This document shows positions 32,548 through 33,415 of a DNA stretch of 64,000 nt, piece after piece; the first letter of the stretch is position 1; the number at the start of each line of letters is the position of its first letter. The DNA is taken from contig CAJQUW010007770.1 of the NCBI GenBank assembly GCA_907163375.1, positions 124,001 to 188,000 on the forward strand, read 5' to 3'. A model generated the notes under the pieces. It saw only the letters and a list, made by a program, of their open reading frames with translations. It did no database searches and was not told the DNA's origin. Both the position numbers and the translations under genes were made by a program. Source of the stretch: Prostheceraeus crozeri. Lineage: Eukaryota; Platyhelminthes; Polycladida; Euryleptidae.

Positions 32548-33198
32548 ATGAGTTGGAAATTAGATTCCCTACAACGCATTGAAACGGATCATGATCGAAA
32601 CGTCTATTTCAAAGATTCAACTGGAAATGTGAGAAGAGAGTTTGCTTTATCTTATCGTCATTTTCAATCTCTACATCATATCATGAAGGACTTGAAATAC
32701 TTCTATATGAAAAGACATTCACGTATTGGAAATCGCATCTGGCTGCGCGTCAACAATCGGCGAATTCAACTCTATCATTCCCAACTTCATACTAACTTCA
32801 CATTTCATCAAGGTAGTTGGGAAAAGTATAAAAAGAAGGTACATCGCTCAATTTACTCATTCTTTCATCATGAAGCGCCATCGCTACACCATCGTCAACA
32901 TTCTACGTCGCTTCAGACTCTACACCAAAATCGATCTCACCACATTACACCAACACCTTCCAAACAGCAAGTATTATCCGGGCCGACCTCAAATGTTAGT
33001 GGTGAAGATGAACAATTCACGGAATCTTCAACTCTTCCCAAATGGGACTGTACAGATTCTCGGCGCCCTTTCTCATTCATCGGCGCAGTCAATGCGCTTA
33101 GAGCTACAAAGACTACTACGTCGGATATGGAAGAGGGAGAGGTGTGTGATGTCGAATCTGACTGTGGACAATATGGTGATCTCTACTCAATTGAGTGA
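32548..33198 (+). CDS. Tandem PC4/Sub1-like repeat protein 2 with overlapping C-terminal extension
   Basis: 216 aa. Residues 1-108 are collinear with the 118-aa neighbour (WKLDSLQRIETDHDRNVYFK, FALSYRHFQSLHHIMKDL, IGNRIWLRV, WEKYKKKVHRSI). After residue 108 similarity ends and a His/Ser/Thr/Gln-rich then acidic tail continues; that tail overlaps the TBP-like ORF in another frame, starting at base 32,870. Either the tail is a true overprinted extension or a shorter protein is made by splicing. It lies 22 bp after the first paralogue. Confidence 0.5.
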   Translation: MSWKLDSLQRIETDHDRNVYFKDSTGNVRREFALSYRHFQSLHHIMKDLKYFYMKRHSRIGNRIWLRVNNRRIQLYHSQLHTNFTFHQGSWEKYKKKVHRSIYSFFHHEAPSLHHRQHSTSLQTLHQNRSHHITPTPSKQQVLSGPTSNVSGEDEQFTESSTLPKWDCTDSRRPFSFIGAVNALRATKTTTSDMEEGEVCDVESDCGQYGDLYSIE

Positions 33199-33415
33199 CA
33201 GTCTATCATTTTTGAAGATTCGTACCAGCAGTTACAATTTGTGTTATGAACCCGAACTTTTTCCTGCAGCTCTCATTAGTTGTTGGTTACCTGTGCATGT
33301 GGCAATCTTTCATAATAGTAAAGTGATCATTACTGGACTAAAATCTCATGTACAAGCAAATGTGATCCTGGACTATCTCATTGAGTATGTACGTACCCAG
33401 CGGATTGTAAAATGA
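32870..33415 (+). CDS. TATA-binding-protein (TBP) homologue, core domain only
   Basis: 181 aa from ATG 32,870, the length of the conserved TBP core, with no N-terminal extension. It has the TBP two-repeat saddle. Repeat 1: IVNILRRFRL, then DLTTLHQHLPNSKYYPGRP, LQLFPNGTVQILGALSHSSAQ. Repeat 2: VDNMVISTQL, then the hallmark YEPELFPAALI, VAIFHNSKVIITGLKS. Of the four DNA-intercalating phenylalanines of TBP, three are present (F56, F131, F147); the position of the other carries Pro40. The frame extends upstream to 32,726 but that part is a shadow of the PC4-like ORF. TBP nucleates RNA polymerase II/III preinitiation complexes; here it could select the element's own TATA promoters. It ends 27 bp before the convergent protease gene. 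Confidence 0.85.
   Translation: MKRHRYTIVNILRRFRLYTKIDLTTLHQHLPNSKYYPGRPQMLVVKMNNSRNLQLFPNGTVQILGALSHSSAQSMRLELQRLLRRIWKRERCVMSNLTVDNMVISTQLSDSLSFLKIRTSSYNLCYEPELFPAALISCWLPVHVAIFHNSKVIITGLKSHVQANVILDYLIEYVRTQRIVK

Follow-up and report, generated by a model that had tools for sequence, protein, structure and literature searches.

The locus considered here raises the question whether a mobile DNA element can possess its own TATA-box-binding protein (TBP) and, if so, which promoters that protein would read. The window, i.e., the whole stretch that was analyzed, covers 64,000 nucleotides of the flatworm Prostheceraeus crozeri (contig CAJQUW010007770.1, positions 124,001 to 188,000). It holds a Polinton-type element, inside which lies the gene in question:

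32870..33415, plus strand, TBP-family gene, 181 aa, single open frame (Pfam, alignment, selection)

This open reading frame (ORF) is translated into 181 aa without internal stop. It matches the Pfam TBP profile PF00352 in two stretches (E 7.6e-21, 74.2 bits for a cut-off of 22.9), i.e., both TBP repeats announced by a preliminary description of this DNA are found, and the profile search which that description had named as a possible refutation favours the finding. Fold prediction gives the two-lobed saddle of the TBP superfamily. The alignment to cellular TBPs also agrees with what had been read by eye: YEPELFP is present, three of the four intercalating Phe are F56, F131 and F147, and the fourth position is Pro40. 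Passages of PMC12529657 state the role of these four Phe and the importance of the stirrup glutamates for TFIIB.

Residues were counted on a 58-row alignment (the window protein and 57 relatives) set against cellular TBPs. The three intercalating Phe positions are kept in 58, 57 and 58 of the 58 rows. In TBP, Val, Thr and Asn positions also contact DNA; Asn101, Val103 and Thr155 are each kept in 58/58. The stirrup glutamates that contact TFIIB are kept in 57/58 and 58/58. The N-terminal lobe is altered family-wide, with Pro for Phe (57/58), Gln for Val (58/58) and Leu for Thr (52/58), i.e., two features of a canonical TATA-binding TBP are lacking: the set of four Phe, and the minor-groove Val and Thr of the N-terminal lobe. 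Since these substitutions are common to the whole family, they reflect a lasting change and not the decay of one copy. Judged from these residues, the DNA saddle of the element TBP appears canonical in one half (C-terminal lobe) and re-shaped in the other.

The conservation of the TFIIB-contact glutamates beside a partly altered DNA face would suit an interference factor, i.e., a protein competing with host TBP for TFIIB, TBP-associated factors (TAFs) or promoters, and thus lowering host transcription or escaping silencing, without reading any promoter of the element. This explanation is improbable: most minor-groove contacts (the three Phe, Asn101, Val103 and Thr155) are conserved in no fewer than 57 of the 58 rows, which suggests that DNA binding is still under selection.

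A second question is where the gene comes from. Polintons pick up genes, and a recently captured copy of the host TBP or of a TBP-like factor (TLF), or a decayed passenger gene, could thus be imagined. The host TBP was located on contig C9306, as two matching exons ~14.6 kb apart (72% and 86% to the E. cuniculi query), and a second, more distant TBP-like host gene (39%), presumably TLF/TBPL1-like, on contig C3829. The element TBP is only 26% identical to the former and 21% to a fragment of the latter; its ORF is intronless whereas host TBP is intron-split, so that the intron-bearing host fragment feared at the outset is not the case. A 63-row tree separates the family (58 rows) from the five cellular rows at 100/100, with very long branches and a long-branch warning from the program. 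Capture from the host or decay is thus hardly credible, and the gene appears, on sequence grounds, to be a TBP-family gene proper to the element and no fragment of a host gene. As an observation apart, the stirrup of the TLF-like host gene (G000:C3829:151573-151923; L022, L059) reads YEPELHSG, without Phe.

Relatives of this TBP exist in public assemblies (61 proteins under an E limit of 1, with values between 1.4e-89 and 1.9e-14), of which 57 were aligned with the window protein. Two observations tie some of them to the gene order of the window: (i) for P0002, an 81% TBP relative, and for P0064, an 80% relative of a neighbour gene, the longest contig recorded has 1,771 bases, and a single contig is presumably concerned; (ii) 14 of the 58 aligned proteins have an N-terminal extension of at least 12 residues, ~9 of which are read by eye as the out-of-frame end of the upstream gene. 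It must be noticed that P0049-P0053 and P0055-P0061 (12 rows) form a distinct long-branched subclade with an N-terminal-lobe pattern of its own (GRPTML, KRVQFFPNG in most of them).

The search for copies covered the 2.05-Gb genome (14,165 contigs). The TBP gene is found at no fewer than 150 places at 99-100% protein identity, window copy included, and none of the 150 has an internal stop; this number is a lower bound, because just 150 of 11,893 first-look candidates were scored. The same genome contains a sister family of elements, whose TBPs are 81-87% identical to that of the window. Selection was analyzed between the window and nine sister-family copies, three of which have one internal stop. 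For TBP, the synonymous divergence (dS) is 0.31-0.48 and the ratio of nonsynonymous to synonymous divergence (dN/dS) is 0.19-0.30. These values indicate a gene kept by purifying selection as a component of the element.

The element itself is delimited as follows:

18893..18898, unstranded, left copy of the target-site duplication, 6 bp, ACCGCT
42415..42420, unstranded, right copy of the target-site duplication, ACCGCT
18899..42414, unstranded, whole Polinton-type element, 23,516 bp, termini AGTAGTAAGT (repeats, duplication, integrase)
18899..19814, unstranded, left terminal inverted repeat, holding ~293-bp internal tandem repeats
41720..42414, unstranded, right terminal inverted repeat
35681..36901, minus strand, integrase with chromodomain (Pfam rve 1.3e-10, chromo 6.2e-7)

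Inverted repeats, a 6-bp target duplication and a retroviral-type integrase, here with a chromodomain, are those of Polintons/Mavericks, and the bounded Polinton of the preliminary description is thus recovered. The label «Polinton-type» is preferred because inverted repeats and integrase are clear, while the protease and ATPase matches stay below cut-off and the capsid and polymerase labels are presumed. The left arm contains four near-identical 206-bp tandem copies (window 23472-24297) and three 143-bp copies (at 21991, 22467 and 22993). GC skew is strong (0.26) over a 388-aa coiled-coil-like ORF (window 20001-22000), unlike the remaining window. The neighbour of the Polinton is an element resembling those without long terminal repeats, with a reverse transcriptase ORF (RVT_1 9.7e-25, window 45778-47184).

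The other genes on which the argument depends are:

25177..28996, plus strand, polymerase-like region, overlapping frames 25,177-27,498 and 27,458-28,996, interrupted (label presumed)
29176..30726, minus strand, cap516, large ORF (presumed capsid role)
30736..32154, minus strand, cap472, large ORF, first ATG 32,133 (presumed capsid role)
32169..32525, plus strand, PURa, 118-aa protein, predicted PUR-repeat/PC4-like fold (fold prediction)
32548..33198, plus strand, PURb, PURa paralogue (42-43% identity) up to ~32,869
33443..33904, minus strand, protease-like ORF (Peptidase_C48/C5, under the Pfam cut-off)
33904..35181, minus strand, major-capsid-like ORF (MCP), 425 aa (label presumed, without database match)
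35184..35639, minus strand, core151, basic 151-aa ORF
37638..38303, minus strand, A32-like packaging ATPase ORF (weak match, under the Pfam cut-off)
38287..38643, minus strand, o118 (weak adenovirus pX match, under cut-off)

The capsid and polymerase labels are presumed from sequence patterns, unconfirmed by searches: the capsid ORFs gave no confirming match to profiles or PDB sequences, and for the polymerase-like region no polymerase was obtained from Pfam, PDB sequences or phage records. The position of TBP «between capsid genes», as first described, is thus plausible, with capsid labels that profile, PDB-sequence and phage-record searches leave unconfirmed. The candidate for a protein-primed DNA polymerase B is placed by its position and a presumed motif, and its frame is interrupted; as the region is split into two overlapping frames, the copy present in the window is probably non-autonomous and not fully functional.

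With the same sister copies, dN/dS is 0.12-0.22 for the protease and 0.15-0.36 for PURa and PURb. It is 0.19-0.30 for cap472 in eight copies (0.52 in one), and, over the 3' part of the capsid-like ORF, 0.11-0.23 in seven alignments (0.45 and 0.56 in two copies with broken or misaligned DNA). Where the upstream PURb frame overlaps TBP, its dN/dS rises to 0.68-1.09; the TBP frame is therefore the constrained one, and the PURb frame beyond the TBP start is probably not coding. A PURb-TBP fusion ORF of ~290 aa, in one open frame, was seen in three translated loci (L034, L038, L043). Besides, 8 of the 150 scored copies show an open frame of 292 aa, for which the agreement of frame length with the fusion is all that was seen.

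Which promoters would the element TBP read? The preliminary description had it direct initiation at five TATA boxes (20,124; 22,149; 22,673; 24,841; 41,141). All five are present in the sequence, but this use is not borne out as written: TATAWAW occurs 21 times in the element, the average of 100 first-order Markov controls being 21.4, i.e., without enrichment, and none of the five boxes heads a virion-type block. What stands from that description is an own, non-host TBP in a Polinton-type element; what does not is the use of the listed boxes. The first box below was on that list, the second was not:

22149..22155, plus strand, TATATAA box, 39 nt upstream of a small left-arm ORF (ATG 22,188)
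32827..32833, plus strand, TATAAAA, 43 nt upstream of the TBP ATG, within the PURb frame (kept in 8/9 sister copies)

Action at ordinary TATA boxes, i.e., an extra dose of TBP boosting the TATA promoters of the element, chiefly those of the left arm and of its own gene, can be defended from several facts. The boxes at 20,124, 22,149 and 22,673 read TATATAA, the last two being 39 and 48 nt upstream of the ATGs of small left-arm ORFs. The box at 22,149 is kept with its flanks in 2 of the 5 fetched sister-family pieces, the only two aligning there, despite an arm diverged to ~67%. The C-terminal lobe is canonical, and the conserved box ahead of TBP also speaks for this idea, though it overlaps the PURb coding sequence, which may account for its conservation. 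Nevertheless, only 2 of the 18 main upstream windows contain TATAWAW (TBP, and cap472 at 7 nt before the ATG, the latter box not being retained by the sister family), and the DNA face of the N-terminal lobe is changed in all relatives of this TBP. On balance ordinary TATA use is rather unlikely. TATTWAA, the late box of herpesvirus type, is found 8 times for 13.0 expected.

Another signal is found upstream of the genes. The most enriched hexamer ahead of the 18 main ORFs is ATGCAA, present in 7 of the 18 windows of 100 nt and 14 times, on both strands, in the whole element. With random start points, a top hexamer as extreme was obtained in 1 of 1000 sets; windows just inside genes gave 1.3e-4, vs. 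3.2e-7 for upstream windows. The seven sites are:

30730..30736, minus strand, ATGCAAA before cap516
32156..32162, minus strand, ATGCAAA in the divergent cap472/PURa gap
32513..32519, plus strand, ATGCAAA, 35 nt before the PURb ATG, within the last part of the PURa frame (altered in 4/9 sister copies)
35671..35677, minus strand, ATGCAAA before the core151-MCP-protease block
38278..38284, minus strand, ATGCAAA before the ATPase-o230-integrase block
38683..38689, minus strand, ATGCAAA before o118
39457..39462, minus strand, ATGCAA before o138

They precede the ATGs of o138, o118, ATPase, core151, cap472, cap516 and PURb by 10-46 nt, this distance being 29-46 nt at six of the seven. Three of them (ATPase, core151, PURb) begin tightly packed blocks, i.e., ATPase-o230-integrase, core151-MCP-protease and PURb-TBP. 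At four sites a TATA-like octamer with a central GC, TATGCAAA, can be read. In the sister family, at five sites, 178/185 motif columns are kept vs. 644/970 other non-coding columns, and the motif is intact in the copies of the ATPase (5/5), o118 (4/4) and o138 (4/4) sites. ATGCAA(A) is thus the best supported shared cis-element, conserved and non-randomly placed upstream of several blocks.

From these data we propose that the element TBP is a private promoter factor, likely binding ATGCAA(A) ahead of the presumed particle-gene blocks and recruiting host TFIIB and RNA polymerase II. We hold this as a working explanation that falls a little short of probable. Its main rivals are the ordinary TATA use weighed above and a host POU factor at the box. 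Several points weigh against the proposal: (i) all 7 bases are kept in just 3/5 copies at core151 and 6/9 at cap472/PURa; (ii) the Fisher value for motif conservation, 7e-21, is overstated, because sister copies share ancestry and columns are not independent; (iii) the PURb site overlaps the PURa coding end and stays outside the 178/185 total, and the cap516 site is uninformative because its region hardly varies; (iv) counted over the whole element, ATGCAAA is not in excess (9 occurrences, the Markov controls averaging 7.5 and 5.5 and the host flanks containing 14 and 9), i.e., its placement and not its abundance is unusual; (v) no ATGCAA(A) precedes MCP, protease, integrase, o230 or TBP, all of which adjoin or come after other genes, and co-transcription of packed gene blocks in a eukaryote is an assumption; (vi) the motif is likewise missing ahead of o176, o204, coil388, ORF131 and the polymerase-like ORF; (vii) the own upstream box of the TBP gene is TATA-like and not ATGCAA; (viii) TBP sites do not usually have a G-C step at their centre; (ix) the PUR-like call for the neighbour genes comes from predicted fold alone, PURa having no sequence-level match in Pfam and further sequence searches.

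A last point concerns ATGCAAAT, which we take to be the POU-factor octamer and which 6 of the 9 ATGCAAA occurrences of the element match. The box could thus be the site of a host POU factor or other activator, with TBP unconnected and working elsewhere. The core151 and o138 sites differ from the octamer in both families (ATGCAAAG/A, ATGCAATG/T), yet they are largely kept, and the spacing to the ATG, 29-46 nt in six of the seven cases, agrees with a core promoter element; such an activator site is unlikely.

Under the proposed private system, the sequence of events would be as follows. Genes with TATA boxes (left-arm ORFs and the TBP gene itself) would be early and read by host TBP; the element TBP would then be made, and would most likely bind the ATGCAA(A) boxes before the presumed particle-forming blocks and turn them on. 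The altered N-terminal lobe (Pro, Gln and Leu for Phe, Val and Thr) would shift the sequence preference, the canonical C-terminal lobe and the TFIIB stirrup would serve the recruitment of host TFIIB and RNA polymerase II, and the two adjacent PUR/PC4-like proteins may help to open or hold promoter DNA.

Large DNA viruses are known to possess general transcription factors, and the comparison with them is instructive. The closest working parallel is the TBP of beta- and gammaherpesviruses (ORF24 of Kaposi's sarcoma-associated herpesvirus, KSHV, and its kin), which reads TATTWAA late promoters while early genes are conventional (passages of PMC12529657). In both cases a protein with the TBP fold is encoded, by a DNA virus or by the element; for the Polinton the use of a non-TATA box is predicted. 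According to the same passages, ORF24 possesses an additional DNA-binding part at its C-terminus, depends on all four Phe, is without the TFIIB glutamates and acts with five other viral activators. Unlike ORF24, the element protein is a bare TBP core with Pro at one Phe position and both glutamates kept.

TBP-like proteins of nucleocytoplasmic large DNA viruses (Heterosigma akashiwo virus, an asfa-like virus, iridescent and ascoviruses) are the best matches in a viral structure library, with 6-21% identity in the rows shown. In Chrysochromulina parva virus BQ1, one TBP and two TFIIBs presumably act on the host RNA polymerase (excerpt of PMC12085832); no TFIIB was seen in the Polinton. These viruses differ from it by far larger genomes, and some have their own RNA polymerase (megavirus, excerpt of PMC11464507). 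Mirusviruses have TBP among their core genes, in 59% of genomes (excerpt of PMC10132985), with genomes of hundreds of kilobases and a herpesvirus-like virion module. TBPs are also reported from giant or large algal viruses, and mirusvirus-like elements of an alga have them sporadically.

By its size, inverted repeats, 6-bp duplication, rve and chromodomain integrase and protease- and ATPase-like ORFs, the element resembles Polintons/Mavericks and adintoviruses. The parts of the Polinton literature checked by term (TATA, TBP) contain no mention of TBP. More widely, the partial texts returned by a PMC search (subscription literature being outside, and the result not being proof of absence) contain no report of a TBP or other general transcription factor in a Polinton or other transposable element. 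With host TBP, the element protein shares the family and the YEPELFP stirrup; it differs from it and from TLF by the low identities, the altered N-terminal lobe and, for host TBP, the intron.

A broader view is possible, though it must be held more tentatively than the binding proposal itself: an ancient lineage of animal Polintons would have a private core-promoter system, made of a TBP re-shaped in one lobe, an ATGCAAA box and two PUR/PC4-like melting factors, and giving a herpesvirus-like early-to-late switch of independent origin. Should the element TBP recognize its own box, this case would amount to a self-contained late-promoter switch of unusually small size and to a second origin of the herpesvirus strategy. 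It would also be a natural experiment on how a TBP changes its DNA preference, one lobe being canonical and the other re-shaped, and would provide a testable motif for the annotation of Polinton genes. Finally, it would argue for a staged, virus-like life cycle of these elements, present or past.
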